Under the pieces are notes generated by a model. The model ran no database searches, was not told the DNA's origin, and saw nothing but the letters and a program-made list of their open reading frames with translations. The translations under genes were made by a program, and so were the position numbers. Shown here in pieces: positions 4,160 through 63,901 of a stretch of DNA of 64,000 nucleotides. Within the stretch, counting starts at the first letter, position 1; each line of letters opens with the position of its first letter. The DNA is from Tetraselmis striata (taxonomy: Eukaryota > Chlorophyta > Chlorodendrophyceae > Chlorodendrales > Chlorodendraceae): assembly GCA_006384855.1 (NCBI GenBank), contig VCJN01003438.1, forward strand, positions 1 to 64,000. The letters run 5' to 3'.

Positions 4160-5057
4160 TGTTGTGTGGCAACTACGGGGGCGGCTCTGTGGATGTTGTC
4201 GTCGTCCCACTAGATGCGGAATAATGTGTTGTTTGCGACAGACTCCATTACTTCACCAAACTGCATGTATGGCGTAATCTCCCGGGGGCATGGGCTTGAT
4301 ACGGCCCACGACGGGCGGCCACAAGTCTCTTGAAGTGGACATGTTGTCTCTTGATGGTGAATCGGTGGGTTGGAAATGGTGGGCCGCATTGCACTCACCG
4401 ATCTGCCAACCCGACCGGCCCCGGACAAACTTAGTTATTCTATGTGGGGCCCTCTAGACGTGCCCTAACGCCATGGTAGTCATCATGACATTTCTGCCTG
4501 AAGTATTGGGCCCCTACCTTCTGTAGTACATACACAACATTTGTTTTATATATGCAACACTCTTGGACGAGGCACTACCAGGTACGGTACACGCGGCAGC
4601 GACCTCATCTCATAGCGACCTCATAGAATCCTTACCACTTCACGAGTGAGTTCTGCTTTATAGTAAATGTAGGCTTAGTAGCCCCAGGAAGGGTTTCACT
4701 GGTGCCAGTCCTGTCCCGGGGGCGGAAAGAAATGTGGGCTTTTTCCTGCCCCACTACTTTCCGCGCATGCTCTGAGGATGAGACGCTACCACTGTATGAC
4801 TGTCAATCACTGCTGACTTTATCGGTAAGGATTTATCCTTAATAGTGCCTGGACAGGTAAAAATATTCCTTACATGTAGTCGCTACATTCCTGGCCAGGG
4901 TGCTGCTCAACCTGCCCAGCGCGTTCAGCATCGGTCTCCCATCAATAACGGTCATCAGCATCGAGGGAAAAGGCGCAGGAGAAGAGCAGCTAGGCTAGGC
5001 ATCCCCCCCCCCCCCCCCCCCCCCCCCCCCCTTTCTCGCAGTAGAAGGTGGTCTGCG
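4160..5057. other. Intergenic and upstream region of the C3HC zinc-finger gene
   Basis: No gene seen. A run of more than 40 C (about 4990-5032) followed by TTTCTCGCAG ends just before the start codon at 5058 and looks like a 3' splice site. A donor-like ACAG/GTAAAAAT lies at about 4852-4862. A 5'-UTR intron is therefore possible but unproven. Confidence 0.4.
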
Positions 5058-8000
5058 ATGGCATCCGCCGGCGACCGGCTGAAGGCGGCGCTGGACGGCC
5101 TGATCTACCTGCCCAGCCTGCAGGCGGGCGGCGACGCGGGCGGCACCCCGACCGAGGCGCCGTCTTCGGCCAGCCCCGGTAGCGCGGTGGCCGCCGCCGG
5201 GGCGCCGGTGCTGTGCCGGCCGTGGGACCGCGCCGACCTGCTGCGCCGGCTGCAGAGCTTCCGCGCGGCCAGCTGGTTCTGCAAGCCGGCGCCGCTGGGG
5301 CCGGTTCCCTGCGCCATGCGTGGCTGGATCAACGCGGCCACGGACACGCTCAAGTGCGAGGTGAGGGGAGAGGAGGGAAGGGGAGGAGAGGGGGGGCTCC
5401 CGGGCGTGCCCTACGCCTGTTGCTCGGCCCGGCTGGTGGCGAGCAGCGATAATTCAGATATATAAAACCCGACAACACCATGAGTGCTAACTCACGCCAT
5501 CCGCCGTGAAATGGCCGCTGCCAGGTCTGCAGCGCCAAGGTGATATGCGAGCTATCGCCCAGCAGCAACAGCGAGGAGTACCGGCGGGTGCGGCTGCGTT
5601 CGGCAGTGGGCAGATGTACCTGCCTGCTTCGCGTGTCCAGTGGGAGGGGGGGAGGGGGGGCTGACGGGGCTGTCCTGTGGCGCGTCCCAGACGGTGGAGC
5701 GCTACACGGCGCTGCTCGACGACGCGCACACCAGCGCCTGCCCCTGGCGCGGCAACGCCTGCTCGCCCTGGTTGCAGCAGTTTCCCACCATCAGCCGCGA
5801 TGTGCTGCTGGAGCAGCAGAAGCTGCGCGTCAAGGTACCCCCTCTCCCCCCCTCCCTCACATTGCGCTCTCCTAACATTGCAGCATCCCGCCAAGTTCGT
5901 CCTCCAGGGGCTCAGAGGCCGGCCGGCCCCCTGGCTCGCAGGCCCTCTCCCTCATCGACACGCTGCCGGAGATAAAGGCATCCGCGGTTGAGATGATGGC
6001 CAAATCCCAGCGGCCTGCCGTGGAGAAGATCATGGGAAGTGAGACCCGCGGCCGCCGCAGGGGCGGCAGCGTGATGGCGGGGAGGGGACTTGCCTGGCTA
6101 TCTGCTGTCCTGGCTTGTGACCGCCCTGGCCTGACCACGCCCTGTGGTGGCGGGCTGCAGGCGGCTCGCTGGCGCAGGTTGGGCGCAGCAAGGCCCAGCG
6201 CCGGGAGGCGGCGCAGCAGCTGGTGGCCGCTTGCGGCTGGGAGGTGCAGATCCAGGGCTACGCGGTGCGCGCCTCCCCCGGCGGCGGCGCCGGCGGTGGC
6301 GGGGGCAGCGGGCGCGCCAGCCCCGCGACGCCGTCCGTGCAGCTGTCGGCGCGCCGGTCGCTGGACTCCGCAGGCGCGGGCCTGCTGAGCGGCGACGGCG
6401 GCGGCAGCCAGGTGGACTCCCACCGGGTGGTGCTGCACTGCCCCATGTGCGCCGCGCGCGTGGGCCTCTGGAACTTCAAGCCCGGCCTGGCAGCTTCGGT
6501 GAGCGGGCTCCACGCTCCCCCAGCACCGCCGTGACAGAGTTTTAACTTACGGCATTGCTTGCAGTTATATTAATAAACAGCGAAACGCATCGACTTCGGC
6601 TTAGCATGAAGTTTGACAACTAAGCCGATGCGGAATGATCCCCGGCTGCTCTGGGTTCGGTTTGACATGTCTACACGAGTATTGGTGACCATGTTGCAAT
6701 TCGTGTGTTTGGTGGGTACGATCGAGAGGAAGTCAGAGTGGCACTTGGCACTGATTGTGGTGCCGCCAGAAGCTGCATCAGTTACATGTCTCTCGGTCTC
6801 GTACTGGGTGGGGAGCCACGTACAGCTGCGCCGTCAACATCAACACCCCCCTCTCTCCCCGCAGGAGCTTTGATGTGTCCCCTCAGCACGCTGACACATG
6901 CTGTGGCGGCCTCTTCCCCGCGCAGCGCCCGCTGTGGCAGCTCACACTCACCGGCGGCGTGGCCAGCCCCTCGACCGCGGAGCTGCCCCCCACCCCGCGC
7001 ACGCCGGCGGCGCCCCCCACCTTGAGCAGCCCCGCCGCGGGCGCCACGCCCAGCACGCTCGCGCCCGGGCCTGTGCCCTCCCCCGCGGTGCAGCGCGCGC
7101 TGGCGCAGACCATCGGCGGCGGGGACCTGTCGATGCTGGCGGACTCGCCCAGCAGCGGCGGCGGCGGCGGTGGGGCATCCACCCCGCAGCTGCCCTCCCT
7201 CGCGGCGCGCACCGTCAAGCTGGCCGCCACCGCGCCGCCCACGCCCGCCTTTGGCCCGGGCGCCGCCTGCCGTGCGCCTGCGTTTGGCTTCTCGCCGCCG
7301 CCACCCAGGCCGCCGGCCACCACGCCCGCCACCCCCGCCACGCCCGCCAGCCAGCCAGCCACGGCGGCTACACCGGTGGCAGACTCAGGTCAGACCCCCC
7401 CCCCCCCCCCCCCCCCTCAACTCTCCCATTGTACTTTGGCTACCGCTGCCTTCTGCAGGCCCCAACCATAGCCCGACTGTGTTCGATTCTGGGACTTGAA
7501 AACGGCACGATCATGTTGGGTGTGTTCCCACGGGGCTTCACGCAGCTTGAGAGTATAGCCAAAAAGCTTGGGGGAGCAAGCTCGTTACGCACTGCATCGC
7601 CTACATTGTTTATGCACAGCGGCGTGCGGACAGTATGTGCTGGGAACGGCGTAACTTCATGTGCGGGCTACCTACCTGCGGCAACCGCACTGTGGGTAGT
7701 CCGGCTGCTGTTGCCGCCGTTACGGGAAAGCAGCGGCGGGAAAGCGCTGTGAGCTCTCCTCGCATATCCTGGCACACTGACGCCTCATCTGCTGGGAGCT
7801 GCGGCAGCGCTCGCACCGGTGCCCGTACATGAGTTTGCCCGCGTCCCAATGCCCCATGTCCCAAATTGTGTCAGCCAGATGAGCCGTATCTAAGGTGTGC
7901 TTATCAGGAAAGGCGCAGCCCCAGTCGCTGCCCGTAATTGTTTGACTACTAATGACGAGTGTGGATATGATTGATAACTACTAAGCAGCGAAGAGATAAG

Positions 8001-9182
8001 AGCGCCTCCAGCTTGGGAATAACACACACTTTGACGCCAGGGTATTTCGTATTTTGCGACTATGCCTACTTCTGGGTTATTCAGGGTTTCCAGACCTAGG
8101 AACCCGATGGCAAAACCTGCCTGCTCGCCTGCCTGCTCGCCTGCCTGCTGTGTTGCTGCGCCGCATAATCGGGCGCGGCGATTGGGTGAACTCGAAACGG
8201 CTAGTCGTGCACCGGTTGGACTCCGGAGCTCATGGCCCTTTCGACTGTGCACCGTGGGTCCCCCCCAGGTGGGCCGGCCGGCGGGCAGGTGGCTGCGTCG
8301 CCCGAGGGAGCGGGGGCGGGGGCGGGCGCGGAGGGCCGCCCCAGCAAGCGTGCGCGGGTGGCGGCGGAGGCGGAGCCGGGCGCGCTGGACCCGATCGCGC
8401 TGCACCGCCCCTTCTGCCCCTGGGTCAGCACCGGCACCGGCGAGGCGCGCGGCCTCCGCTGCGGCTGGATGCGCGTGCTGGAGGCGATGCCCGCGGACCG
8501 CCCGCATGCCGCGGCGGGCACCCCCGCGCCGCCCCTTGCGGACGACGCAGAGCACACTGAGGACGGCCAAACGGTGAGAAGCACCCCCCCCCCCCCCCCC
8601 CTCCCCCTCCCTTGGCCACACAAAGTGCTTCTGGGGCGAGGGCTAGGCCTGCTTAGGGCTTTCAAGGTTTTAGGGATTAGAACGATTTCATGGGTTTTAT
8701 CACCAGAACCCGGAAAACCCCAATGCCCATTAAAACCCTAAACATGCGCCGAGTGCCGGGTAGCTGGCTGTGGTTGCATCCGGATTCGTGCGAACGATTT
8801 CAGCACCAGACACGCTGCGGTGTACACCTGTGACCCTCACCCACCTGCACCATTCCATCCGGCTGACGAGTCCCGAAGGCACTGCAATGCACCGATCGGC
8901 AGCTGTCTCTATTTGAGTCCTGTTTTCGGTGTGGTTCTCAAAACACCGCTGGGGAAAGGTGTCCCCGCACGGCAGGGGTGACTGGCCGGCTATGTAGTCA
9001 ACTGGCCGCCACGCTGTCGACATGCGCCGCCCCGCAGCCTCCGCCCCTGCCCCGCCCCACCTGCCGCGGTTCCCGTCCCGTGCCTGTGGACTGATGGCCG
9101 CTGCCCGCCCGGGGGGGGGCTCCCGCCCGCGCAGATCGACCAGTACCGGAAGCGATTCATGACCGCGCTGTTCAACCCCTGA
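5058..9182 (+). CDS. C3HC zinc-finger protein, NIPA/ZC3HC1 (Rsm1) family, 8 exons
   Basis: Model: 5058-5360, 5525-5587, 5691-5834, 5942-6038, 6161-6498, 6926-7388, 8269-8573, 9135-9182; 586 residues; all phases agree. Residues 59-170 form the first C3HC (BIR-like) zinc finger with C100-x2-C103 and H135-x3-C139 followed by PW. Residues 204-310 plus 505-535 form the second (Rsm1-type) finger: CGWE at 227-230, C296-x2-C299 before GLWNF, then H515-x3-C519-PW. A long Ala/Pro/Ser/Gly linker (316-508) with a basic PSKRAR nuclear-signal candidate splits the second finger, as in plant and animal relatives. The family comprises nuclear proteins at the nuclear-pore basket and in cell-cycle control; that role here is inference. 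Introns 3, 6 and 7 start with long C runs. Converges on DVR. Least certain: the short exon 2 donor (GTGCGG) and the acceptor chosen for exon 4. Confidence 0.85.
8651..8745. repeat. Fold-back telomere-like motif in an intron
   Basis: TTAGGGCTTTC and GTTTTAGGG on one side are answered by AAAACCCTAAAC on the other, inside intron 7 of the C3HC gene. Degenerate copies of the plant/algal telomere unit (TTTAGGG) in inverted arrangement. Confidence 0.55.
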
Positions 9183-9311
9183 CGCCCGCTGTTCAACGGC
9201 GCACCTCAGGGCCGCGCTGGGGGCAGCCCTTGCGGATACACGGCCGGGCAATAACACCCCCCTTCCCCCCCCCCCCCTCCCCCCCACGGGGCCTTTGCCC
9301 CTTTGCCCCCG

Positions 9312-9565: not shown

Positions 9566-12500
9566 CTATTCCTTGAAGATGGCCGCGTCGCCCAGCTCCT
9601 GCCCGGCGAGGCCCTCTTTGACCGCCTTCTCGAAGAACGCCTCGAGGGTGTCCTTGCCGTACGACGGCGTCGCGTCGGCGTCGTACGCCTGCCGCTGCTC
9701 GTCCCACACCAGCATGCTCTCCGCCGCGTAGTAGCGCCCGATGCGGCCGAACTCGGCGCTGTCCTCCAGGTTGGGGAAGAAGCGCGCGAGAAAGTCGAAG
9801 ATGCCGATCACGCCGTCCATCAGCTCGATGGGCACCGGGAAGAAGTTCTCCTTCTTGCCGGTCAGCTTGAAGATCATCTCGCCCTGCTCGCGCGCAGAGT
9901 ACGCCTTGCCGGGGCCTGCCACCCCAGAGGGAGCCACAGTCAGGCAGGTGCCCCCCCCCCCCCCCCCCCCCCCTTTTGCTGAGGGCCCACTCTTCCCACG
10001 CAAATGCGCCCAACGGACTGAGTGCCATGACTGCAGGGTTCGTCACTTTCGTGGTCGGCAAACCCCATTATACGTCGCAGCACCCCCCTGGCACACATAT
10101 ATACATATATATGTGTATATGTATATGTATATGTATATATATGTATATGTATATGCATATGTACAAATATACATAAACATACAAATACATAATACATATA
10201 CTTTGGCCTGGCTATTCCAAATGCCGCACCTGGAGGGGCCTCTGCAACATTCCACCCTTGCATCCGTAACCCTAACAGCGGCAACATCTGAATGGCTCAC
10301 ACCGGCACGACCGGCGCCACCGGCGCCGCGTACTCTTTCAACCGTACCGGGCCGTGTACTTAATGACATATTGAGACGGTCAGACAACCGCAGACAAGAC
10401 GATTATAGGTTACATCACGGTGCTCATCAAGGGGTGCCTCAGTACAACCCTTGAACAAGGCTCGTCCGGTGTATTTCGGGGAATCCCCACAATACCCCCC
10501 TGGTGCACTTCACCGCCCCCGGGGGCCGGGGGGGGGGGGGGGGGGGGGGCTCACCTCCGATGGGCAGCATGGCGTTGATCTTGTCGGAGTCTCCGCGGAC
10601 GCAGTCGGCAATGAAGCTGGCGAGGTCGCTCTCGCTGATGGGCTTGCAGCTGGCGAGGTAGCCGTCCCCGAAGTACACGTACGGGCCGCCGCCCTTCACG
10701 ACCTCGATCTGCCCCAGACCATGCCCCCCCGGGCATCAGTCCCAGTGCCCCCCTTAAGTGCGCCCCCCACCCCCCCCCCCCCCCCCCCCCCCCAACACCC
10801 ATCCAGGGCGCTTCCCTGATGCGCAGCCCGCTGAGGTATATGGGCGCCGGCACGACAACAGCAGCATCACAAACAAGAACCGCTTGCGCCCGTGAGGGGT
10901 CACATGTAGACGAGCGCCTAGCAGATGGTCGCATAGCTGGCATGCAGGACCGGTTTGAAGCATAGCGTATAAACACAAACAGTTCGCGGATTAACAATGT
11001 TTTGGACCCCGCCCACCCCTCTCATGAAGAGGGAAAGTACTATTACAACGGACAAATCAGTCAGAATAAAACACGAATACAACACGAATCCTCCGACGCA
11101 AGGCGCAAAACAGTCCATTAGTATTTGGCACCGCGGACCACATTTCATTGTAGGGTATGTTGTGGGCCTTTTGGGCGCGTCAGCCCCAATATGTGATTGG
11201 TACGGCCGCCGTTAAGCGCTTCTCCTGTCATGGCTGGCAACCCCTGGCCAGCATACGCCCGCACGGCGTGGGGCAGCGGCAGCGGCGAGCAGGGGCTCAC
11301 CTGCCCCGCCAGGCTCTTGAAGAAGGCGGTCGGGCGCACGATGCTGTAGTTGATGTCGCCCGCCTCGGCCAGCTCCTTCTCAAACTTGAGCTTGGCGCGC
11401 TGGAACTCCAGCAGCGGCTTCTGCACGCAGATGGCGGACAGCAGCACAAAGTGCTCCGCGCCCTGCTCGCGGCCCAGGTCCAGCGCGTTCTTCGTGGCCT
11501 CGTAGTCGATGAGCCACGAGTCGGCCTGATGGGTGTGCGTGGGCGGAGGCAGACCACGCGTAACAACAGTAGGCTGAGTGCTGGGAGGAGGAGCCCCCCC
11601 TGAGGAGCCCTCCTAGGTGCCCTCCCTTAGGACCCTATGCCCCCACACTGCGTGTCGCCCCGTGCGAAGTCAGCGAGCCGCATGGTGGGATGTTCATTCC
11701 CGGAACCCAACTGAGTAGGGCCCTGGCTGTCGCACCTTGCCGCCGGTGCGGCTGGCCAGGCAGCTGACCACGACGTCGACCTTGTCTTTGAAGCCCACCG
11801 CCTTTAGGCTGTCGCGGTTGGTGACCTCGCCGAAGCGCACGTCCGCGTCGGGAAACTCCTTGGTGGTGGCCTCCATGTCGGACTTCCCCTTCACGCCGCT
11901 CTTCTCGCGGGAGAACGCCACCACGTTGTAGCCGCGGCTCACGAGCTCCCGCACCTGGTGGGAGCGAGGGCGCCCGGACGCTCAGCAGGATCCAGCGGCC
12001 GGCCATCCTCCCGTGCAAGGTCCTAGCGTCGAAGCAGCCAAGGCAGGGATCGATTAAGGATTGGTGGCATATGGTTGCGCAGCCGACCGCACCACAAACT
12101 TGCCGATGTAGCCCGTGGCGCCCACCACCAGCACCCGCACGTCCTTCGGCTCCTTGCTCGTCCAGGCGGTCGACGCGGCCGCCTCGCAGCGCAGCGCGCC
12201 GTGGCGGCGGGATGGCCGCGTCGCCGCCGGTGCCTGCGGATGTGTGACGTCAGAATGCGGCCGTCATGCGCGTGAGATGGCCGGTGGGAGGCGTGGAGGA
12301 CGTGGGCGATCGCAACCCGGGTCGGCGTCGGGCGGGAGGGCGACCAGCCGACTCACCGCGACCGCCTTGTGCAGCGAGTTTGCGCCAACGGAGAAGGCGC
12401 TGCGCGATGGCGGGTTCAGGGGCAGCCGTTAACCGCCACTGGCGTGAATGGGTGCGAGGGGTGCGACGGGGACATGCCGGGGGTGGGGGGTGCGTGGCAG

Positions 12501-13591: not shown

Positions 13592-13628
<37 letters not shown>

Positions 13629-15565
13629 GGCGTACTCGTAGTCGTGCGGCTGACGGGGACCGGGCTGGTTTGTGGGCCGTGACGGCCGGTGGCGCGCAGG
13701 GCCCAAGCGGACCCGCGCGAATCCGTGGATGCCTTCCACACCAAGAGCTCCGCGGCATGTGAGGCTTGGCGGCGGCAGCTGGCGGAGGTGTCGAGGTGCG
13801 GCCCCCCAAACTACTGGGTGCGGTACAGGAACAATGCATTTTTCCATTACCATCTGCATGCAGAGGGAGAGGGAGAGAGTAACCCTAAATGTGGGTAGCG
13901 GCAGAAGGAGGCGTAGCTGACGGGCATGCTGGTCTCGGCAGCGGCTCCCTGTCGTCCGAGCAGGCAAAGGCGGCGCTGGACGGGCTGGCTGGGCAGCTGC
14001 AGGGCCTGGAGGCGGAGCTCGCCACGGCGTCCTACTTCCTGCCCGCCTACGATCAGCGCTCCACCAAGTGCACATACAAGGAGATGCAGGCGGAGGTTCG
14101 CCGATGCGCCAGGGCAGCTCGCAATGCCCACGGTGGCAGCAGCTTCAGCTCCGTGGGCCATGCCTGAGTCACACGCATGTGCCCCATGCAGCTGGACGCG
14201 GCGCGCGGCGCACTCGTGCCCAAGAAGAAGTTCTCCTTTGGCGGCCGCGTGGCGCGCAAGAAGGCGGCAGACGTGGCGGAGGTGGCGTCCAGCGCTGCGG
14301 CGAGCGTGGCAGCGAGCAGGGCGGTGATCGCTGCGCCGGTGGAACCGCCGGAGGTCAAGCCGGGCAGGTGGGCGGCATCCCTGGGGAGCAGTCTGCGGGC
14401 GAAGGGCAGGGGGGGGGGTTGGAGGTGGCTGAGCGTGGATGGGTGTGCGTGAAGGGGGCTGCAGGGGCTTCGCGGCGCCACCGTGGTGGTCACTGCCGAG
14501 CAGCTGGGTGGGAACGACTTCACGCTGATGGACCTGGAGGTGTGCGCCGCAGCCCCCTCCTGCGCGATGGGCTGTCCCGCGTGGCACCGCTCCCGCCCCC
14601 GCATTCCATCACCCCAGCATGCCCCGCAGGTCTAATGCCCCCGCCTTCGCCTTCTGCGCCGACATCTCCCGCCCGGCTTCCGCGCAGGACTGCAAGGTGT
14701 TTCTGCTCGGCCGCATGTCAGCGCTGCGCTGCCACCGCATGTCGCGTTGCCGCGTGTTTTGCGGCCCCGTCGCCGGCTCCTCCTTCTTCGACGCCGTGCA
14801 GGACTGCCTGCTGCATGTGCCTTCACACCAGGTGCCTCCCACCACAATCCCCCTCCCCCCCCCTCCCCCCCCCCCCCCCCCCCCCCCCCTCCTTCCCCGG
14901 GCACGGAAAGTCACCCCCGCCAGCGCACACTGCCATGACCGCATCGCCCGCGCCCGGCCCTCAGGTTCGCATCCACAGCACCACGGGCACCGACTTTTAC
15001 CTCCGAGTGCGCTCCAACCCCATCATCGAGCACTCCTCGGGTGCGGCCCCCCCTTCCCCCCCCCCCCCCCCCCCCCCCCCCCATGTCTGCGGCGGCTAGG
15101 TACTTCGATTCTTTTCCCATTGAGCCGAGTCTTCTTAAACCCCCCAACCTTTGACATCCAGGGCTGCGGGTGGCGCCTTGCGCATTTGACGACTGGCCGG
15201 GGGCGCGGACGCTACTCGCGGGTGCGGGGCTCGCACCTGACGATGACGATGTAGTGGGCAAGTGGCGGCAGGTGGACGACTTTGGGTGGCTGCGCGCGGT
15301 GCAATCGCCCAACTGGTGCCCCCCCCCCCCCCCCCACGACACACACACCACCACCACCGCGCCGGTAGTTCAGCAAAGCCTTCGGGAGGCCACCCCCGGC
15401 ATGTTGACTCCCTCGACCCACCTGCGTCCGAGCACTGATTTCCCCCCACTGGTTTTCTCTCCTGTCTTGCGGCTGGCCAGGGCGGTGCTGCCGGAGGAGG
15501 AGCGCCAGCCCGCGGATGCCGCCGTGGAGCCAGGCCAGCCAGGCGTGATGGGGCTGCCTCTGTAG
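13414..15565 (+). CDS. TBCC: Tubulin-binding cofactor C (TBCC), 9 exons
   Basis: Acts with cofactors D and E as GTPase activator for tubulin, releasing folded alpha/beta dimers in the cytosol. Model: 13414-13547, 13700-13795, 13942-14095, 14192-14353, 14465-14539, 14688-14831, 14965-15040, 15162-15315, 15481-15565; about 359 residues. Seen: charged helical N-terminus (NEERLKDAERRKEEAR), FLPAYDQR, LVPKKKFSF ending the spectrin-like part, then the C-CAP/TBCC beta-helix: DCKVFLLGR, CRVFCGPV, HQVRIHSTTGTDFYLRV (Arg in the QxRIHS position that serves as the arginine finger in the family), PIIEHSSG, and the terminal VDDFGWLRAVQSPNW followed by LPEEER. Introns 6, 7 and 8 begin with C runs, while intron 1 instead carries a G run of about 35. 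Uncertain: the intron 2 boundaries (an equally phased alternative is 13787/13964) and the intron 4 donor (GTCAAG at 14354). Confidence 0.9.
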
Positions 15566-26200: not shown

Positions 26201-29110
26201 GCCCATGCAAGCCGCAACGCGCGCCGCCTAAAATTAATGGCCGAGCATCGACCTTGACACTAATCGCACCGCTCGGAGGCAGCCGCTACTTTATCACCGC
26301 AATAGCCCCCCCTCCCCCCCCCACCTCCCCCACCTGCCCAGGGCAATCTTCAGACAGAACGGGTGCGGGGCGGCGCTCACAGGACGGTCTTCTCCAGCAG
26401 CTGCGTCTGCCCCTGCATCGCGTCCCGCAGCGCCTTCTCCGCGGCGCGCATCATCTTGTTGGTGTCCACGATCTTATTGCGCAGCAGCTGGTTCTCCCCT
26501 GCAGCCATCAGGGGCATTTTGAGAGGGTTATAGGGTTTTTAGGGTTTTTAAGATAAACCCTAAAACCCGTTGTTGTGGGGGGGGGGCGGGGGGGGGGGGG
26601 GGGGGGGGGCAATGGAACTCACAGCATCGGGGCCTAGAGGCAGACGGGACGTGCTGTCTCAAGAGTGTTTATGGGTTAGGTTTAAAACCCTAAAACGGGG
26701 GTTTTTGGGGGGGGGGGGGCGCACGCTGCGACATGTCCAGCTCAAACTCCTTCTCCTCCAGCAGTTGCCGCAGCTGCCGGTTCTGCGCCTTGAGCTGAAT
26801 CTTCACCTCCTCCGACGTCATCGCCATGCTGAACGCCATCTGTGCGCCGGCCACGTGCCCGAGCGGGCGCCGTCAGGGTGCGACATGGCGCTCAGCTCGC
26901 GCCGGCCGCATGGGGGGGCAGCAGATCGTCGGCGCGGCCAGCCGCAGCGCCCCACCTGGCTGCAGTCGATGCAGAAGTCGCCGATCTGCTCGCGCACCAT
27001 CTGCGCCAGCTGGTCCTCCATCCCGTTGACCGCCTCCCCCACTCGGCTCTTCTCGCCCATTGCCTCCTTGTGCGCCTGCCGTGCCGAACGAGGAGCGCCG
27101 CCGCTGTGAGAGAGGGAGGGGGAGGGAGGGGAGGGGGACAGCCAGGCAGCCAGGCGCCCCAAGTGCTGCCACTCGCAACGCCCTCACGTCCGGCCCAGGG
27201 AGTGTCTGCTGACAGTGATATCAAGCATGGCCGGTTGCGCCGCAGCTCGCGCGAAGCACTTCCTCCCCCCCACTTACATATATCTCACAGGCTAACAAGG
27301 GGATAAGGTATACACTACTTTATGTCATACGCTGGACGGTCATTGCTCGAGCACGGTCCTGCGCTCGGACAGGGCGCAGCTGCCCACCTGCCGACGCGGG
27401 GAGAAGACCACCACGGCGATTAAGAACCCACCCCAGGTTTGCCAGGCGATAAACGCAGACGGACCCACAGCGGAACGATAGCGGCTGTTCCCATAACAGG
27501 CCGCGCGCAGGTGCCAAGCCAGAGGGTTACAAGAGGGGTCACTACACGTCCGTGGGCGCCCGTGGACAATTGTCGGCACAACAACGGCACTGCGGTATCG
27601 GCCCCACGAGCAGGAAGCATCAACACGACACCGTACGGAGCGAGAGCGCTCTTATTCAGGGGGGGGGGGGGGAGAGGGGTAGGGTACTGCCCGCAAGCAC
27701 ACGCATGTAGGGCGGGCGGCTGTCGTGACGGTTTCATACTCAATGGCAGGGCGCCGCTGGAGTTTTTCCCCCTATTCCTCCGAGTAGGTCTGGCGCCTTT
27801 CACGGGGCGAGGCCAATAATATATTATTATAGATGTTTTATGATATATTAGACCATACATTTTAAGGTATAATATGTGAGACCCTATAACAGCGGTCTAA
27901 TTAAAAAGGTCTCCACCTATCAGACCTATGTGCAGTACCGCGCCACGCCCCCCTGTTTACCATCCACAGGCAACCGCCACTGTCGGACGGCAGCGACTAT
28001 GCCATTGCGGCGTGGTGCGGATATGTTGGCAGCGGCAAGCAGGTGGCGGAGCAGGGGGGAGGGGGGGGGGGCGCGCCTGCATGTTGTTGTAGCGCGAGTC
28101 GAAGAGCGTCTTGTCGCTGCCGCCCATGAGGAAGCCCAGCACCGCCTCCACGCCCTGCTCCACCACCGACAACGGCGGGAACTGCAGCGGGTTGAGATCT
28201 TTGGTGGGGGGGGGGAGGGGGGGGGGGGGAGGGCGCACACCAGTGGGAAGGGGTTGAGTTGCCGTTTCGATGCGGACTGCCTCTGATGTGGAGCTAAGCG
28301 ACCTCAACCCAGTGATCGGCCGCTTCAAGTGGCGCCGCCGCGCGACTTTGGTGCTGAGCTGTTAATCAAACAACAAGCGATCCGTAGTAGTCGTATAAAG
28401 AAACAATATATAATCGCTGTGCACGTGCTGTTTTCACGTATATATAGCGGTACATAGGGGTAGGCGGCAATCGACAGCCCTCGACATAGTTGCTATATGG
28501 CGCTGACATTGCGAACATTCCTATTGTCGCTTTTGCGATACTGGAGGTATATTTAACCGCAGCTGAAGCGATGTTTCTTTTATTGCGGTGCGGCGAGTCC
28601 TCCGGCCGGGCCTCGCACACAGCGAACTCGATGCCCGTAGAGGTAATCACCCTGACCGACCCCCCCCCCCCCCCCCCCCCCCCCGGGGGTGTGCTGCCTA
28701 ACCAGGCGTCGCCGGGAGATTGAGGCTCCCATACGGGGGTAACTCGGGCACTCCGGCCACAGCGGCACCAGCTGGGTCCGGAACTATTGCCGATTACATC
28801 GGCACCGTGAAAACACTATCGTATGTCACTGAGGCGCGTGGTGTGTCCCTCTCGGCGCTCGACATCCCCTTGCAGCCCTCGACGTTATCGCTATACGGCT
28901 ATATCGGTTATGCCCTACAGTCGACATAGGGCATAGTCGACCTGTATGACATTGACATTGCAAACAGTTCTATTGTCGTATTTGCGATACTGGAGGTATA
29001 TTCAACCGCAGCTGCAGCGATGTTTCTTTTATTGCGGTGCGGCGAGTCGCCCGGCCGGACCTCGTACAGAAGGAACCCGATGCCCGTAGACTTAATCAAC
29101 CTGAATCCGT

Positions 29111-29147
<37 letters not shown>

Positions 29148-37552: not shown

Positions 37553-38933
37553 CTCTCTCTCTCTCTCTCTAGCTGGGCTGGAGGGCGGGACGTAGCTGCC
37601 GCTATGGGCAGACGGCACTCCGCCAATCCGCCGTGTCATCACACCACATGACTCATGTCGCTGTGCGAGGGGCACCTGGAAGTGTTGACTGGGGATTCAC
37701 GCAAGCAAGTACAGCCCCTACAAATGGCCCCGAGAGGGGCGCAGGGCCAGGTGCTGCAGGGGAGGCGTAGGCGTGGGCTTGGGCTTGCGGGGGCGGGGGG
37801 GGGGGGGGGGGGGGGGGGGCAGCGCACTTTTGGTTGAGGGTGCTGCCTGTGAGCGGGATGTCTGGCACCACGGCGGTCGGGGACTGCTGCTGCAGCGGGG
37901 AGGGCTGCGCCCTGCGAGAATCCAAATGAGAAGAGGGGGGGGGGGGAGAGGGGAGGGGGGGGAGGGGGGAAGAGGAGAGTAAGCAGGCTCTGGCTGATCT
38001 ATCCCCCGAGCGCAGCTCCCCACTGCCGCCATGCCGACGGCAGCAGAGGCGGGCGCGCACGTGATGGGGGACGGGGGGGGGCGCATGATGGGCGGGGCGC
38101 ACCCCTGGCCGGCCACCGTCTCCCGCGGCCGCAGCCGCACGTCCTCGCTCATGCGCCGCGCGCCCTCCCCGGCCGGCCGCCCGTGGCGGCGGTACGACGC
38201 GGGCGGCGCGCCGTTGGTGAACGACTGCCGCCGGCTCTCGCGCCCCTTGAGCGCCTTGACGCGCACGGGCGGCGGGCTGGCACCGCGGCCGTCCTTGCGC
38301 CCGCCGGGCAGCCGCGCGCCCCTGCGCACCCGGGCAGACGGGGCCCAGCGGACCCCCCACCTCCCCTCAGTAGCCGCCCGAAGCCGGCTTGCCCAGCCAT
38401 TGACCCCCCAATGAGCCTTGCTTACTCCCCTCCCGCCTGTCGGCACCCACCTGCCCTCCGCCGCCTTGGCGTTCCCCCCTGGCGGGTAGCTGCTGGCGGG
38501 CTTGGGCGCGTCGGCGCGCCGGCCGCCGGGGGGCAGGGTGAGCGGGCCGAGGTCCAGCGCGGTGGTGCGCTCGTCCGGCAGGTTGCCCAGCGCGGCGCCC
38601 AGCCTGGAGGGGGAAGCCCATCCGAGAAAGAGCGGGGAAAGGGGGGGAGGGGGGGGGGGGGGGGTCAGAGGACCCACCCGGGTGAATGCATCCAGACGCT
38701 AAGTAAGGGCCATGCACAGGTGCTGGCGCGCCGCCGGACCTGTGCTCCTCGCTGCCGGACGGCGCAAAGGGGTTACTGGCCGCAGTAGACGCACACACAC
38801 ACAGCGCGTCAGCGGGCGCAAGGAGGCGGATGGGGGCGGGCCGCTACAATCCCAGGAGTATTGTGTGCGTGTGTGCGGGGGGGGGGGGGGGGGGGGGGGG
38901 AGAGCAGAGAGGCACTCACGCCGCCTTGTTCAT
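23296..38933 (-). CDS. Leucine-rich-repeat and coiled-coil protein, 18 exons
   Basis: Exons, right to left: 38933-38920, 38775-38740, 38603-38451, 38321-38103, 37911-37828, 37202-36990, 36259-36184, 35240-35130, 34305-34204, 31665-31447, 30881-30822, 30253-30031, 28198-28077, 27075-26956, 26839-26725, 26498-26381, 25731-25443, 23805-23296; 927 residues, all phases agree. Residues 1-265 are low-complexity Pro/Gln/Ala/Gly-rich. Residues 266-520 are about nine leucine-rich repeats of the short intracellular (Ras-group/SDS22-like) type, for example LTYLDVSHNELQWLPESF, closed by NPLQFPP...VVEQGVEAV as in plant PIRL-like proteins. Residues 545-800 are predicted coiled coil with heptads (IQLKAQNRQLRQLLEEKE). 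The tail is acidic then Arg/Ser-rich. Role unknown; a scaffold is inference. Introns 8 and 13 use GC donors. Coding is 2.8 kb of 15.6 kb. The first six exons are the least certain; an in-frame ATG at 38954 is an alternative start. Confidence 0.8.
24229..24276. repeat. TATTC pentanucleotide microsatellite
   Basis: About nine tandem TATTC/TGTTC units in intron 17 of the LRR gene. Confidence 0.9.
24517..24750 (+). repeat. Dispersed repeat family 2, copy 1 (LRR gene intron 17)
   Basis: Matches 50394-50612 in the same orientation with moderate divergence. Shared blocks include GTATACTTTTCC, ATAAATGGGC, CTCAAACAATG, CGCAATACGAC and CTAATTGCC. AT-rich; no coding potential seen. Confidence 0.75.
25016..25365. 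repeat. 21-26-bp minisatellite in LRR gene intron 17
   Basis: About 14 degenerate copies of a unit close to CGGCGCCCGTAAAGTATTAT, some extended by an ATCACCGCGT spacer. It lies just downstream (in the sense direction) of the exon 17 donor at 25442. Confidence 0.9.
26525..26712. repeat. Two fold-back telomere-like motifs in LRR gene intron 15
   Basis: AGGGTTTTTAGGGTTTTT is answered by AAACCCTAAAACCC (about 26525-26570), and GGGTTAGGTTT by AAAACCCTAAAAC (about 26667-26694). Both sit with long G runs inside a 226-bp intron. Confidence 0.7.
28506..29330. repeat. 449-bp tandem duplication in LRR gene intron 12
   Basis: 28506-28954 and 28955-about 29330 are two diverged copies with identical landmarks: CTGGAGGTATATT, GATGTTTCTTTTATTGCGGT, GTGTGCTGCCTAACCAGG and CAGCTGGGTCCGGAACTA. 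Each holds a C run at the same place, about 26 in copy 1 and about 34 in copy 2. Confidence 0.9.
31266..31305. repeat. Interstitial telomere-type array (CCCTAAA-like)
   Basis: TTAAACCCTAACCATAACCC then TAAACCCTAACC, several near-perfect units of the plant/green-algal telomere repeat inside intron 10 of the LRR gene. Confidence 0.75.
31675..32025. repeat. 63-73-bp minisatellite abutting LRR gene exon 10
   Basis: Five copies and the start of a sixth of a unit containing GGTGACTATAT, TTAGGAAGGCTATAAG, GGGCTAAGGAAGGCTACG and TAATAAGGAAGGACC. Unit length alternates around 73, 67, 73, 63 and 67 bp. On the sense strand the array ends less than 10 nt from the exon 10 acceptor. Confidence 0.9.
32485..32600. 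repeat. TA/TG-rich microsatellite
   Basis: Alternating ATATGTACATAT-type units in intron 9 of the LRR gene, followed by a short degenerate CCAGCAGCGAG/TACCAG repeat at about 32700-32850. Confidence 0.8.
33030..34062. mobile_element. 1,033-bp TIR transposon with TAA target duplication (PIF/Harbinger-like, non-autonomous)
   Basis: Both ends begin GAGGCATATCATACGGACAT when read inward. The terminal inverted repeats are identical over at least 39 nt and continue as imperfect homology (GTGCCACGTCG and RC). The element is flanked by TAA at 33027-33029 and 34063-34065. A 3-bp TWA duplication is typical of the PIF/Harbinger superfamily. No transposase is recognised inside; a 131-codon minus-strand frame (33400-33795) has no known match. 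It sits in intron 9 of the LRR gene. Confidence 0.85.
33150..33215. repeat. Long near-perfect palindrome inside the TIR element
   Basis: Arms of about 33 nt (GTATACTGTACACGGGGGCA then TTTCCA) meet at a 2-nt centre (AA), giving a hairpin with a single 2-nt offset. Flanking CTATCTGATGA/TCATCAGATAG extends the symmetry. Confidence 0.9.
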
Positions 38934-49900: not shown

Positions 49901-52900
49901 AGGCGCAGGGAGGGGAAGGGGGGGGGAGGAAGGGAAGGGGGTCATCGCCATGTGTGTCATGATTGTCTAGAGTAATAATACAGTACAGCTGCGGGCCGGG
50001 AGCCCGCGTCGGTTTCAGCTTCAAGTGGAGCCGCATGTAAGCTTGGGTATGGAACAACATGCACGACCACCGTGTGTACATCAATGTATAAACATGTGTA
50101 GATTTCCCGCGCGTGGTTGTTACCGCCACAGCAAACACGATGCTCCCATTCCGCTCGTCACTGCTTTGTCATTCGTGATATACTGCCCCGCAAATAAAGG
50201 TACGGTGCTACCGTATCCCGACGCTGCGAGTCGTCCGGCCGATCCTTGCACAAGGTCCATCTCGCGCATTACATGGGCAACCCCACTAGACCATACGTAC
50301 CCCCTAGTACTTTGTCATACTGCACAAGGATTACCTAACCTGTGAAAGCATTGCGTAATCGTTGCCAGTATGATTAGCGTCATCTTAAATATCGTTTTGC
50401 ATCGGTCCGCATTACTGCTGTATCGTTATTCAATTTCAAACATTACACGTATACTTTTCCCCAATAAATGGGCCATACAAACTCAAACAATGGACTTAGT
50501 GCTTTCCGGGAATCGATTCGCAATACGACAAAGATGTATCTGTCAGTTTTTTTCGAAATAATCCGTACCACAAACATGATTTATATTCTATTTCTAATTG
50601 CCACACCTCCGTGCTTATATACTTTTTAGTGGGGGAGTGTAACGGCGCCCACCTGCAGGTCCTCGCCGGCGTGGTACCGGCCCAGCACCCTCGCCTCGCC
50701 CTGCGTGATGAGGAAGAGGTGCTCCGCTGGCGCGCCCTGGCTCACCACCACGCCGCCGCGCTCAAAGGTGGCGGAGCGCATGAAGACCGCCAGGCTGGAG
50801 AGGTGCTGGCGCGGGAGCGCGTTGAAGGGCTCCACCTGCGCGGACCGTGTGCAACAGGGCGCCGTCAGCAGCTGCGGCAGACGCGCGCTGTCCTCGGCGC
50901 GCTCTGATACGAGGCCCGCCACACGGGCGGAACGAAACCCAATTGCGCAGCTTGGGAGAGAATTTTTATCGTCATGCATGTGATATGTACACCTCTGTCG
51001 TACCTCAGCATAAGGATTATACGACTACGTAGAAAGTACTGTTTGGATTGAACCCGAATGGCGCGTCGCAGTAATGATATATGGGCGCGCGGTACCGGTA
51101 CATCAGTCTGCTGCTGTTATGTCTACTCGTGATGCACCCAGCGGGCGCAGCAACGGGTGAAGCAGTAACCCGTACCACTTAGCAGCAACGGTAGCCGGAA
51201 AACGGTTAGGAAAAGAGGAAAACCCATACAATAGTTTAGATCAGATCGACTAATCCTTAATGCGCCGCGCATCGTTGCAAAGCCACAAGACACATTGTGT
51301 GAATATGAGGTCAGAAAATGCTGTATTACCCTGCAGCATCGTGTCAGACATATGTCCGTATGGCATTTGTGGTGTATTTGTGGAGTATATTTGAAGACAG
51401 ATATTTTCTATCTTTGCGGAAAGGGGCTGGGGGAGAGCGGGTCAAAAACGATATGCTGGAAATGTACTGCCGCAAACCCATAGCGTGCCGGCGGTCGTAT
51501 GGCGACTATACGGCTACCGGCAGCAAAAGCACCTACTCTACAGTTGGGCTAGCAAAATCGAGCAGCGCAGGGCAGCGGGAATGCACAGCTCTGCAGCCGC
51601 TAGTATGGAAGGACAGTGTCAGCCACCAGGACTAACAGTAACCGCAATGCCCAAAATACAACGCGCGGATCCACATTACAACAGTGTTCGCCCACCGCTA
51701 CATACCCGCAAGTTGGATGCTCGAGTGCGGATACATCTTTCTTCTCGAGGGACCGATGCCCTCCGACTGCGTGGAGCCCCGTGCCGACACATCGCATTGC
51801 ATTGTGCCCGCCATAGCCCTGAAGCCCAACTGGTAAGCAAGACTCGGCTAGGTGAGGGGGTGGGGGGGGGGGGGGGGGGGGGGGCGCACCTTGGCGAGCG
51901 TCTCCAGCAGCTCCGCCAGCTGCTGCGTCATCAGCTGGTTGACCGTCTGGTCGTAGCACTCGCGCGTGATGCGGATGAGCTCGACGCCCCGAAACTCGCC
52001 CTCGCCCTCGCCGCCCTCCGGGGCCGCTGCCGAGGGCGGCGCGGGCGGCACGAGGACGCTGGCGGTGCGCTGCGCGTTGCGTTGCAGCAGCGCCAGCTCG
52101 CCAAAGCTGCTCCCGGGGGTGAGCACGCGCACCAGCGGCCCGTAGTACGAGTCCGGGTCCTCGCCCAGCAGCCTGGGGGACCGGTAACGGAACACACAGC
52201 ACACGCACACTTGCGCCTGAGCCCCAGTTTGACTCTTTGTAACACCGCCTAATCGCTACTCGAGCAAGAGGCGGCAGAAAGAGGGCACGCTGCAACGACA
52301 CGGACAATGCCGCTCGGGTTGCTGTGGGCGCTGTGTTTTGAAAACGCTCCTACTACTGAAGTGACCAAAAACGAATTGGTCGCGGATATTCAATTATACC
52401 GGTGCCATATTCCAAAAGAGAGATTCATGATGTGGCCCATCGAAATAATGTAGAAATAAAATGGCTTTATTCCTCATCAGAGGCAACAACATCGGCTAAA
52501 TAGCCAGAACACCAATATACTAAGTATATGCTATTAAGGGATGTTACAAACCAATGCTTTCTTAATACATTCTCTAATACATGTTATTATAAATTGATGC
52601 AGTAAGAAGCCATGATGTATTACGAGACAGATCCATTTTCAATAGTCGCTATAGTAGTTCGGGGCTGCTTTCTCCGCCCTCATGCATCAATCTGCACTTG
52701 CTTATCCCCGCTCAGCTGGGCACGTTGGGGCGGTCATCTGAGCGAACATGAAAGCAAATTATTATATTCAGAGGCAATAGACTCTCGCCCGGGGGGGGTC
52801 GCACCTCTTGACGGGCTTGCCGTCAGAGCCGACGCCCACCAGCGGCACCTCCTCCTGCAGCAGCGCGTTGCGCGTCAGCGTGCGCTTGTGGTGCGCGGCC

Positions 52901-55900: not shown

Positions 55901-58900
55901 GCCTTGACTCCGCGTAACCTGGCCACTTTATGAAGTGCGCTGAACCATCGCAACTTCAGTACCAAAACATCGTCAAGAGTACTAAACACCAATGGCGTAG
56001 TTATGAAACGCCAGCTCGAAACGGAGTTGCGCACAACCCCCTGCCCATCCTGAGGGTAAAGAGCAGCAGCGGGGGCGGGGGGAGGGAGGGGGGGGGGGGG
56101 GGGGGCGCACCGCCAGGGCCTGCTGTCGCCACTGGTTGACGGCCTTGGCTGCGCCCATTCCGAGGACGGTCCGGAACGCGCCCGCCTCACGCAGCTTCTC
56201 TTCCTGCCGCCACAGTCACATTCATCTGTCAGGCTCGCCGGGCGTGGCACTCCTACGGCTGCGCGCATCCGAGGCAACGGGGGCTCATCCGTGCGGCCGG
56301 CGCGCACCTCGGCCGCCTTCTTGGCGAGCTCCTCCTCCTCCTTCTTTTTGCGCGCCCTGTCGCGCTCCTCCATCGTCATCCAGCGCCACTTCGCGGCGGC
56401 GATTGCGGCGAGCGGCGTCATGTGGACCTCCGTGAAGCCGGAGGCGGCCTCCTGGGCGGGGATCGCCTTGCGCACCGACTCCATGAACCTGTGAGGCACC
56501 AGCAGCACAAGGCAGCCGGGATGTTGTCAGACACTGCCCGCCTCCATCCTCCGCCCCCCGTGTTGCTCCCCGCAGCAGGAACAGCCATCAACCCTAAATC
56601 CGAGCAGGCGGACATGCAGCTAAGCATCGTGACAATCGTGGTCAAGTCCAGAAACCGAGCGACCTTGGGCCCACTACCCATTGGCGAGGCTCTTTCGTAC
56701 TATATCATACATTATAGTATATGATAATGATATTTGATATGTACTTTATATTATTACATATGTACTATAATAATATATTAAGCCTACGTTTCTACTAAAC
56801 AAGGACTTTCATATTCCTGGGAAAAATAGGCTGGAACTGCTCCGTAACCAGAGCATGTGCCCATGAGCAAGAGCAGCTGGGCGCCATGTCACGCTTTACC
56901 CTTGATATGCCAGGATGGGAACATCGGATAAAGTCTTCGCGGGGCATACTAACAAACGGGCAAACCCAGCACTCAGACATCCTCACACCCTTCCCAACTT
57001 CCGCAGCCGGGCGACGCACTGGTTGACCCAGTAGGTGCCGTTGTGCTCCACCAGCCCGGCCTTGTCCGCCTCCTTGTCGCTCACGGCAATCACGGCGTCC
57101 TTCTCCACCGCGCTCATGGCGTGCGGCCCCTTGGCGCGGCGGCTGCTCTTCACGGTGCCGGGCGCCATGGTGGACGTGCGCGTCTTCTTCGTCAGCCGCG
57201 TCGCGGCCGTCACGGCGGTGCGCGCGTCGTCGTCGTTGTCGCTGTCGTCGTCCTCTAGACCCAGCATCTCGGGCTCCGGCTGTTGCCGCACCTGCCGAGA
57301 CAAGGCCGAGGCGCAAGCGGAAGGGGTCCGCCGGGTAGGCAGAGGAACACATTTAGGCAACAGCGACAAGGCGCCTACGAGCCCCGGAGGCTCTGACCGA
57401 TCAAATGTAGGCGCTCATAGGGTTAGGAAGGTGCCAAAGACAGAAGAGACAGGACAAAAGAGGCGCGGGGGTGGGGAAGGCACCTCAACGCCACCCGACA
57501 AAAGAATGTACATACATTCCCCATCATCGCCCTCCTCAATGATGGTGGCGCCTGCCCATGGGACCGGGCATGGGGGTGGGGTCAGCCGGCAGAAACCGGG
57601 ACTAGCACGAGGCGCTGGCAGCGCTGCGGCCGATGGTCCAGAGCAGCGGTGACCACTGATGGCTGGCCGCGCACTGGGTGGCGTGGGCCGGTGCGTACCG
57701 TGAGGGGCACGCACGCGCTCCATGCCGGCCGCCAGCTTGCTGCACAGCGCCTCCGGCAGGCCGCGGAACGAGTCCATGCCCTGCAGCACGCGTGTCAGCA
57801 GCGCCACGTCCTCCTCGCTGCGCATCTCGGGCGCCCACTTGAGCGGGCGCAGCGCGAGCGCCGCCTGCAGCGCGCGCAGCGGCCCCTCGGCCGACGCGGG
57901 CCCGTAGCCGGCATACTGCGCCAGGTGCCGCCATGCGGGGCGGTCCAGCAGTAAGCAGTGCGCGCCGCGCGCTCCTCCCGCCACCACGCTGACGCTCGCG
58001 GGCTGCGGGGGGCATGCCGCAGCGGGGTGGTGAGTACCCGAGCAATGGCATCGGGACGAAGCGCGATTCGATTCGGTTCGCGAGTCCTAACCATCATGCG
58101 CCCTGTTTTGCACCATTGAGTTGCAAAATCTGCACTATATTTGTGGTGAAGTGTACTCGCATTGATTAAGACATATCCTATACCGTGCAAACACACAAAT
58201 GGTCAGCGGGCATGTAAAGTTTTGACCCCCCTCTCACAGAGGAACTCTATTAAAACAAAGGAATTATTCAGAATAAACCACGAATACAGCACGAATATTC
58301 CAATGATGCAAAGGAGCAAAACAATTAATTTTTTGGGCCCCTAAACTGTATCTAATCATACGTTAGTTAGTATGCCTAGGGAAATAATGGACCCCTGGCC
58401 CGCCCCCACCTTGCCCGGCTCCAGCAGCGCCCACTCCCCAAATGGCTCGCCCGCCTCCACGATGCCGATGCGCTCCCCCACGTTGCCGGGGTCCGCAACC
58501 GCGGCCGCCAGCGCCACGCCGCTCGGGACGACCGCCCCGGCGGGCGCCTCCTCCGTCGCCCAGCTCGCGCGCCGCTGCGACCGGAAGCTGTACTGCTTCC
58601 CCAGGCGCGGCCCGAAGCCCGCGTCCGCGCCGTCCTCGGTGGGCTGTCGCGAGTTGGCGCCCAGCAGCGGCCTCAGCAGCCCCGGGTCCTGCTCGTGCAG
58701 GTCGCAGTGCCCGGACACCACAATATACCTGCCCACAAAACAAGCAGCTCGCCGTGAGAGCGCTGTCACCTCCGCCCGCCACTGCCAACTGCCATCCAGC
58801 CCCGGGAGCACCAATCACATAAGGAACGTAAGCAAGAACACCCGTTGCTTTGCTGCCAGGATAGGGCTTCCGGCACTTGAATACGGATGACGCAATGATA

Positions 58901-61167: not shown

Positions 61168-61199
61168 CTACTGCCCTTACTCTGCTGATCGAATTCATA

Positions 61200-62505: not shown

Positions 62506-63901
62506 TCACTCCGGCGGCGCCTCGCGAACGAAGTAAAGCAGCGGCTCCAGCGCCACCGAGCCGCGGGTGCTCGCCTCGCGGACGGCCCGCACCCGCACCT
62601 CCTGCGGCCCCTCCAGGCAGCCCGCCTCCACGGCGCCGCCCGCGCCCCGCCAGCGCCCCGGCGGGATGCGCACCGCCCGGCTGGACGCGCCCTTGACCAG
62701 GATGGGCGCCACGAGCACGCCCGGACCCAGCAGGAACTGGTCCTGGACGTGCGCATAGCCCTGCGCGGCAGCACCCGGCGGCGGGTCAGGGAATGGGGGC
62801 CGCGGCGATGCTCGTGGAACAATGGGGTTGGCGGCGGAGGAGGGGGGGGGGGGGGGGGGGGGGATGCGACTGGTACGGGGCAGCAGGCGTGACGGAGTAG
62901 GTATTCTAGTCCACAAAAACCTGGATTATATTTGTCTTTCGGCCCAAAATAAGAGTTTATGGGCCGTCAAGAAAGTATCACCGTGCATGTTTTCGGGGGC
63001 GTTTTCCACCAGAATTAGCAATGAATTGTTGTGGCCTAATGCGCACGCAACCTTGGGGCCAAAACCAAGCTTTAAGGTGTGAGGTGTGAGCCACACTCTG
63101 GGAGGGTTTCAACTCTACCTAGCCCGGACCTCCTCTATACGTGAAAAAGGGGAGGCGCCCCACCTGCTGCGGGAACTCGTACTCCATGTGGCGCAGGATG
63201 GGCGCCCCGCTCCGCGCCGCATCCGCCGCCAGCTCCGCGATGAGCGGCGCATGGCGCCCGTGCAGCGCCGCCGCCTCGGCGCAGGCCGCCAGGTGCGGGC
63301 CGTCCAGCACCCGCCTGCACCGCAGGAGTCGGCACACCCCACATGCCGTAAGCGCATCCCCCGACAGTGGCTAGTGGAGTGTTTAGGGGAACGCGGGGCG
63401 GGGGGGGGGGGGGGGGGGGGGGGCGGACGCACCAGGGCGCCAGCGCGAACTGCATCATGGGAAACAGCGCCGACACCTGCGGGATGGCAGCGCCAACGCA
63501 GAGGATGCGGTCAGGCCAGGGATTGAGAACAGAGGACAGGTCGGGCAACCCCGCAGGGGGGGGTGGGGGGGAACCTGCGCGTAGCGCACAAAGAGCTCCT
63601 GGTCGATGTCAAAGCGAGGCTCCAGCGTGCCGAGGTGGTAAAAGTCTGTCGGCAGCGGGACAGCGGCGCGCTTGTTAGCATGCCGGTAAGTGCGATAGTG
63701 GGCAGCTACCGGAAGGACGGGGCTTGAGGGGTTGGAGGGGGGAGGGGGGGGCACCGGAGTACTGCCCGCCGCCGATCATGTCGGGGCACCCAAACGCGTA
63801 GCCGGACAGCCCCTGCGCCGCGCCGTTGGGGATGAGGCTCGCCAGGCCGGAGCCGTCCCAGGCGTGGTTCTTGTCGCACAGGCGCTGCGTCAGGTGGGTG
63901 C
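62506..63901 (-). CDS. Glycoside hydrolase family 31 (MYORG-like), 3' end only
   Basis: Exons in the window, right to left: 63901-63755, 63645-63575, 63476-63433, 63314-63164, 62760-62506; phases agree; about 221 C-terminal residues, the rest beyond the window. Seen: NHAWDGSGLASLIPNG, then GYAFGCPDMIGGGQY holding the candidate acid/base Asp, then DQELFVRYAQVSALFPMMQF and LAPWR, then ALHGRHAPLIAELAADAARS and GAPILRHMEYEFP, and the post-barrel sheet QFLLGPGVLVAPILVKGASSR and PPGRW. The PDMIGG pattern and short spacing match the MYORG/KIAA1161-type branch of GH31 more than classical alpha-glucosidases. Known: retaining alpha-glycosidases; the MYORG branch acts on alpha-galactosides. Substrate and compartment here are inference. 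The three introns after 63755, 63575 and 63433 all begin with C runs. Confidence 0.88.

Follow-up and report, generated by a model that had tools for sequence, protein, structure and literature searches.

C-runs directly behind 5' splice sites of Tetraselmis striata and a possible C-rich extension of the donor

Why do long homopolymers of C stand just behind 5' splice sites, and why with C on the coding strand? The question is raised by positions 1-64000 of contig VCJN01003438.1 of the chlorophyte Tetraselmis striata, a stretch of 64,000 nucleotides (nt) which is referred to here as the window. Its plus strand contains 31 runs of C and 53 runs of G of at least 7 nt (longest, 33 and 34 nt), and an original prediction, made from the letters of the window, held that these runs favour the donor side of introns. 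C-runs directly behind donors were confirmed to be real, with C on the sense strand, and far above chance. With some though not strong confidence we explain them by a C- and pyrimidine-rich extension of the 5' splice site, likely a splicing enhancer acting via a KH-type poly(C)-binding protein, which ordinary homopolymer slippage has lengthened.

Introns were predicted in a local sample of 308 kb, consisting of the window and further stretches (labelled L0xx), which yielded 23 genes and 110 modelled introns. Pattern counts covered the genome (224 Mb, 2903 contigs) on both strands, with the reversed pattern as control. Introns are predictions from gene models, part of them homology-checked, and run lengths are given as assembled; true lengths may differ. 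In our own gene finder all C/G runs of at least 7 nt were replaced by neutral N before prediction, so that runs were unable to attract introns. The donor matrix spanned positions -3 to +6 alone, and sequence past +6 was therefore not learned by the model. The codon model was seeded with exons of Cpn60_TCP1 genes (Pfam matches), read at loci L036 and L038, and GT and AG were left unscored. Two earlier set-ups were dropped: a coding model self-trained on long open reading frames, which was misled by repeats, and a first gene-model run that treated GT and AG as evidence, leading to too many tiny exons. The finder converged on donors AG/GTG[CA]G and acceptors GCAG/G (slash, splice junction), with a GC content at third codon positions of 0.91 in the 308 kb. 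Only GT donors were predicted, GC donors being outside the model. Introns were called confident if both flanking exons scored at least 8 (n=91); the other 19 of the 110, with a flanking exon below 8, were dropped. At the Cpn60_TCP1 gene of L038, seven exons and six introns were recovered under seed settings; final settings retained four of those exons and skipped three short ones.

C-runs at donors in the local sample and the genome

In 15 of the 55 introns modelled in the window a C-run of at least 7 nt begins no more than 30 nt from the donor, and in two a G-run does; the predicted figure was about 20 in some 60 introns. Among the 48 confident window introns the numbers are 12 and one. In the 91 confident introns of the sample, runs of at least 8 nt touching the first 40 nt numbered 12 for C and none for G (15 and two for runs of at least 7 nt). 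Run positions in these introns were compared with randomised placement: the stretch up to 30 nt from the donor holds the starts of 17 of the 46 intronic C-runs, where 5.2 ± 2.0 would be expected if runs were placed at random within their own introns, and none of 5000 simulations reached 17. The first 15 intron nt hold the starts of 15 of the 46 C-runs and of none of the 23 G-runs.

The same concentration was seen when introns were divided into bins of 17 nt. A C-run starts in the donor bin (+4 to +20) of 14 of the 91 confident introns and a G-run in none of them, and the 1726 interior bins contain 18 C and 16 G run starts, giving a near/interior ratio of 14.8 (gene bootstrap over 19 genes, 95% confidence interval 3.9-29.9). 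The excess was unchanged when runs of at least 5 nt were masked or when masking was omitted. GTs that score at least 2 on the donor matrix without being modelled donors served as decoys. Only 10 of these 1010 decoy GTs are followed within 30 nt by a C-run, compared to 12 of 71 donors in the model; the corresponding numbers for G-runs are 15 of 1010 and 3 of 71 (p=0.11). The sense-strand C bias is a donor-side effect. The claim that it follows transcription thus holds at the donor (14 C, 0 G) and not in the intron interior, which is near symmetric (18 C, 16 G). A further claim, that other runs form the tract before acceptors, was not borne out in the confident introns, where seven runs end within 30 nt of an acceptor, no clear excess over the 5.2 expected. 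Runs of at least 10 C (C10+) number 51 in the window; modelled introns contain 26 of them in sense and nine in antisense orientation, and the other 16 lie elsewhere.

Genome-wide, the pentamer AGGTG, found at 39 of the 91 confident donors, was followed by C10+ at a distance of 0-14 nt in 4528 places, compared to 930 for the reversed pattern. At 15-29 nt the counts were 2883 and 1626, and at 30-44 nt 2331 and 1410. The ratio drops with distance from 4.9 to 1.8 and 1.65, so that about 1.7 represents background asymmetry of the reversed control. With G10+ in place of C10+, 0-14 nt gave 3676 versus 3588. AGGTGCG was directly followed by C10 in 146 places (reversed, 2), by exactly five C (C5) in 743 (reversed, 23) and by exactly five G (G5) in 46 (reversed, 59). 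Since the genome contains 113,991 C10+ runs, about 4% of them adjoin AGGTG. Very roughly, 7,000-8,000 donors might carry a C10+ run, a figure estimated from the AGGTG share and not counted.

Run-free introns and the lengths of runs

The 75 confident introns without a donor-side C-run are C-rich at the same place. C makes up 48% of positions +7 to +12, and 26% of mid-intron sequence (52 introns longer than 200 nt, runs of at least 5 nt cut out). C-over-G skew in the 75 introns was 0.230 (interval 0.142 to 0.320) at +7 to +12 and 0.145 (0.034 to 0.262) at +13 to +20; in the bins past +20 it was 0.076, 0.034 and -0.027 with intervals spanning zero, and in mid-intron -0.009. A transcription-linked mutation bias would not be expected to fade within 20-40 nt. 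Among the first 100 of the 743 places, the base after AGGTGCGCCCCC was T in 82, A in 10 and G in 8 (counted by eye; four T belong to one tandem repeat), and after CGCCCCC anywhere in the sample T followed in 31 of 92. As T mostly comes next after AGGTGCGCCCCC, the donor stretch is pyrimidine-leaning rather than C alone, and the homopolymer is its extreme. Position and polarity do not differ between exact C5 tracts and the long runs (743 C5 versus 46 G5 after AGGTGCG), and the i-motif or template G-quadruplex that the original prediction had considered is therefore not needed.

Run lengths bear the mark of slippage. Among 41 matched tract pairs, some of which enter twice, once from either side, mean flank identity was 88-99%; the partner was interrupted in 23, and 17 of the 18 pure-C partners differed in length. 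Within one repeat, a C14 tract has counterparts of two to four C in three further copies, and between chaperonin paralogues a C25 tract corresponds to C4TC6. Such differences between copies with alike flanks indicate that slippage is active. C10+ and exact C5 tracts stand at 146:743 where AGGTGCG donors precede them, and the sample as a whole gives 121:512 (p=0.19); donors thus expand C seeds no more than other places do. The predicted slippage hotspot, tolerated in introns, is consistent with the unequal copies and with exons that are nearly free of runs, but it accounts for neither donor position nor polarity. Sorted by length, the C and G runs of 303 kb show a hump at about 21-25 which was not seen for A/T runs.

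Duplicated sequences carry C-runs of their own. Two copies in the window (28493-29329), some 450-470 nt apart and 87-92% alike, have C-runs of 25 and 33. A multi-copy element (contig C1950, about 15-22 kb, L024 and L031; contig C2500, about 16-23 kb, L027 and L034; L025, 3-9 kb) has C-runs at common places and of unequal lengths; its copies share a 70-nt intron, and in L025 it contains a tandem array repeating every 30 nt or so. The chaperonin gene pairs C1546/C2482 and C2634/C424 have near-equal Pfam scores and the first pair is near-identical, which implies that the assembly contains recent duplicates or unmerged haplotypes.

Individual run-bearing donors

Thirteen of the 18 donors listed in the original prediction were reproduced to the base, with 8574, 15316 and 38919 below the confidence cut. 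The remaining five (7389, 15041, 28076, 30030 and 35129) are absent from the model; two of them, 28076 and 35129, would be GC donors. Protein read across the donors 63754, 63574 and 63432 was aligned to chain 8j50_A, a GH31 alpha-galactosidase, and all three junctions were ungapped; this enzyme (8j50) is also the closest PDB match of the gene. The model to which the gene belongs (46930-66900) contains cNMP-binding domains as well, and this GH31 fusion probably represents two merged genes. Outside the window, three of the six introns of the Cpn60_TCP1 gene at L038 have a C-run of at least 8 nt that begins some 25 nt or less from the donor. By eye, GC donors too appear to precede C-runs, CAG/GCGCG and CAG/GCACG in the window and GCGAG and GCAAG among genome-wide matches. 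Telomere-like units (TTTTAGGG-like) occupy about 26600-26724 (minus strand) within an intron and adjoin its C13 run. Such units, together with the GTGCG donors and the third-position GC content of 0.91, would suit a chlamydomonadalean alga.

Table 1. Donors followed by C-runs in the window, and the GH31 gene.
Positions	Strand	Feature	Status in the gene models
5835..5852	+	Donor GTACCCCCTCT, then C7 (5846-5852)	Confident run-blind model; in original list
7389..7416	+	Donor GTCAGA of original list, then C22	Sequence present; no donor in model
8574..8601	+	Donor GTGAGAAGCA, then C18 (8584-8601)	Modelled; weak downstream exon (q 2.2), below confidence cut
10528..10554	-	Donor GTGAG, then C22	Confident model, q 30; gene matches NAD_binding_10, NmrA
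14832..14889	+	Donor GTGCCTCCC.., then C9 (14855-14863) and C25 (14865-14889)	Confident model; gene with TBCC_N, TBCC
15041..15082	+	Donor GTGCGG of original list, then C7 and C27	Sequence present; no donor in final model
15316..15335	+	Donor GTG, then C17 (15319-15335)	Modelled, q 6.9, below confidence cut
26707..26724	-	Donor GTGCG, then C13, then TTTTAGGG-like units	Confident run-blind model
28061..28076	-	GC donor CAG/GCGCG of original list, then C11	Sequence present; GC donors outside model
30009..30030	-	Donor GTGCG of original list, then C17	Sequence present; no donor in final model
35111..35129	-	GC donor (CAG/GCACG) of original list, GCACGC6A, then C7	Sequence present; GC donors outside model
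36169..36183	-	Donor GTGGGGGG, then C7	Confident run-blind model; outside original list
37795..37827	-	Donor GTGCGCTG, then C25	Confident run-blind model
38877..38919	-	Donor GTGAGTGCC.., then C24	Modelled at low score (q -2.5), below confidence cut
51862..51889	-	Donor GTGCG, then C23	Confident run-blind model, q 42
52791..52804	-	Donor GTGCGA, then C8	Confident run-blind model; outside original list
56088..56110	-	Donor GTGCG, then C18	Confident run-blind model
62510..64000	-	GH31 glycosidase gene, window part, three run-bearing introns	Pfam GH31 domains, PDB alignment to 8j50; model extends past window (into L028)
63400..63432	-	Donor GTGCGTCCG, then C24	Confident model; GH31 alignment (8j50_A) ungapped at junction
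63556..63574	-	Donor GTT, then C7 (63565-63571) and C8 (63556-63563)	Confident model; GH31 alignment ungapped at junction
63744..63754	-	Donor GTG, then C8	Confident model; GH31 alignment ungapped at junction, six-residue gap a few residues beyond

What may place C-runs behind donors

The proposed C-rich extension would make the 5' splice site longer than the core signal. In run-free introns of the sample, AG/GTG[CA]G is followed by a C-rich, pyrimidine-leaning stretch which peaks around +6 to +12 and is indistinguishable from background past +20. C/G homopolymers grow by slippage in this genome (about 114,000 C10+ tracts, with lengths that vary between copies), and the donor-side stretch would supply the C seed from which ordinary slippage could make a run of 10-30 C, in line with the equal C10+:C5 ratios of donors and sample. 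With seeds that are C in the sense direction, the runs would change strand whenever the gene does. Donors of the type GTGCG pair imperfectly with canonical U1. Most probably the C stretch would help U1 to settle on such imperfectly matching donors, with a poly(C)-binding protein of the KH type as mediator, much as poly-C enhancers can in human cells. The 5' end of the U1 small nuclear RNA is canonical in both copies, and hence no altered U1 accounts for the C-tract. Three KH_1 matches within 800 nt (contig C1064, 10582-11365) mark a candidate poly(C)-binding protein. Among the roles considered in the original prediction, a poly(C)-binding splicing factor would fit best with the C skew at run-free donors and with the enhancement by poly-C described for human cells (PMC8789036), the three KH matches providing the candidate.

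Several observations weigh against this explanation. The G at +5 is kept in 9 of 15 run-bearing introns compared to 63 of 75 run-free ones (p=0.07); its reduction could reflect compensation by the tract or equally erosion, that is, damage rather than help. The signal is uneven, with 14 of 55 confident introns in the window plus 10 kb and 1 of 36 elsewhere (p=0.004). Part of the 4.9-fold genome-wide excess at 0-14 nt is a general upstream/downstream asymmetry, which is still 1.65-fold at 30-44 nt. A shortage of G-runs at donors was not demonstrated at +4 to +20, where the interior rate predicts only about 0.8 starts and none was found; the result is therefore a C excess and not a proven G shortage. 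In the local sample, runs of at least 7 nt relative to those of 4-6 nt amount to 16:25 close to donors, as against 17:127 within introns (p=0.0003), a comparison which would favour selection for length. We gave more weight to the C10+:C5 comparison at AGGTGCG, the baseline of which includes exons and comes from the 308 kb. Finally, in a human minigene, poly-C placed at a second site, +15, suppressed splicing, an effect ascribed to a GCACC silencer (PMC8789036).

If C/G runs simply arose everywhere by slippage and survived in introns, donors would not be special. The abundance of C10+ tracts, their varying length between copies and modelled exons that are almost free of runs (4 C and 1 G of at least 7 nt in 29.3 kb) all agree with such pure tolerance. 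It is nevertheless already hard to hold, and in our judgement very improbable, as the donor bin exceeds the interior about 15-fold and contains C only next to a near symmetric interior, decoy GTs lack comparable runs and the skew of run-free introns is confined to about +20. Only a slim chance is likewise given to mere avoidance, in which G-runs beside donors would be harmful, by forming an RNA quadruplex or pairing with the donor, and C-runs would be what is left over. G5 after AGGTGCG is indeed not above its control (46 versus 59) and no G-run starts at +4 to +20; yet avoidance predicts no donor excess of C over the interior, contrary to the 14 of 91 introns versus 18 of 1726 bins, and the G shortage on which it builds is undemonstrated, with 3 of 71 donors having a G-run within 30 nt.

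A quite unlikely, though less remote, alternative is that the long run itself is selected, either as a length-dependent enhancer or as an i-motif or template G-quadruplex that slows the polymerase at the donor. The local 16:25 versus 17:127 and the rise of the human poly-C effect with length (PMC8789036) point that way, but genome-wide the C10+:C5 ratio at AGGTGCG donors is not above that of the sample, lengths differ between copies, and C5 tracts already show position and polarity. Carriage of the runs by a mobile intron family has next to no probability. One 70-nt intron is common to three copies of a repeated element, but it has no donor-near C-run in the confident list, and the common sequence of introner-type mobile introns was not found among the run-bearing introns: all-against-all comparison of the 110 introns of the 308 kb gave nine matching pairs, and 3 of the 15 confident run-bearing introns match other parts of the sample. 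For 56110 and 51889 the matching sequence is deep within the intron; for 14832 it covers nt 3-42 and occurs at a single place. An intron family sharing run-bearing sequence was rejected on this sample. An assembly or sequencing artefact is hardly credible either; homopolymers are error-prone and run lengths may still be off, but errors are blind to donor position and transcription strand, and C5 tracts show the same pattern.

A U-rich element which follows donors, is bound by TIA-1 or Nam8 and helps U1 is known; it likewise is a pyrimidine tract just behind the donor, with U where C is found here. Closer in base composition are human C-rich intronic splicing enhancers bound by PCBP1/2 (alphaCP), which also consist of a sense-strand C-tract close to a splice site. 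When three C were added after +10 of human SMN2 intron 7, inclusion rose from 50% to 67%, and longer poly-C raised it further, PCBP1/2 being named as likely binders (PMC8789036). The C-rich motifs flanking alphaCP-enhanced human exons are mostly upstream (644 of 749 exons, with 42 downstream only; PMC4797308), whereas the putative enhancers described here are long homopolymers that adjoin the donor genome-wide. Long C/G tracts in Caenorhabditis are abundant, rare in exons and biased inside genes towards C on the coding strand (84 to 47; PMC2211496). The T. striata tracts are similarly over-represented (113,991 C10+) and rare in exons, but those of Caenorhabditis are unbiased in their position within introns (PMC2211496), in contrast to the donor-side excess (17 of 46 versus 5.2 expected) and polarity reported here. 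At human 5' splice sites the enrichment of G-quadruplex motifs is 5.56-fold for the non-template (sense) strand, compared to 2.38-fold for the template (PMC9065059), again a strand-asymmetric element at the donor, though of the opposite polarity, with C being on the sense strand here. Algal C-runs behind donors were the subject of none of the titles and abstract openings listed from open-licence PMC literature, and a word look-up of 'homopolymer' in the snow-alga genome papers PMC11228838 and PMC11457085 returned nothing. We rate poly-C enhancers after donors as known from human cells and their genome-wide homopolymeric form as new.

A bolder form of the C-rich extension is put forward only tentatively, as it is rather unlikely. 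It would amount to an extended donor code. A sense-strand C-tract, beginning at about +6, would take over part of the pairing with U1 and be read by a KH-type poly(C)-binding protein attached to U1. Donors might then lose the G at +5, and slippage of the tract would tune splicing gene by gene. Should the C-rich extension itself prove right, a minor human type of enhancer, the C-tract behind the donor, would be a genome-wide feature in another lineage. A mutational habit, homopolymer slippage, would moreover be tied to a splice signal, and tract length would act as a fast-changing dial on splicing.

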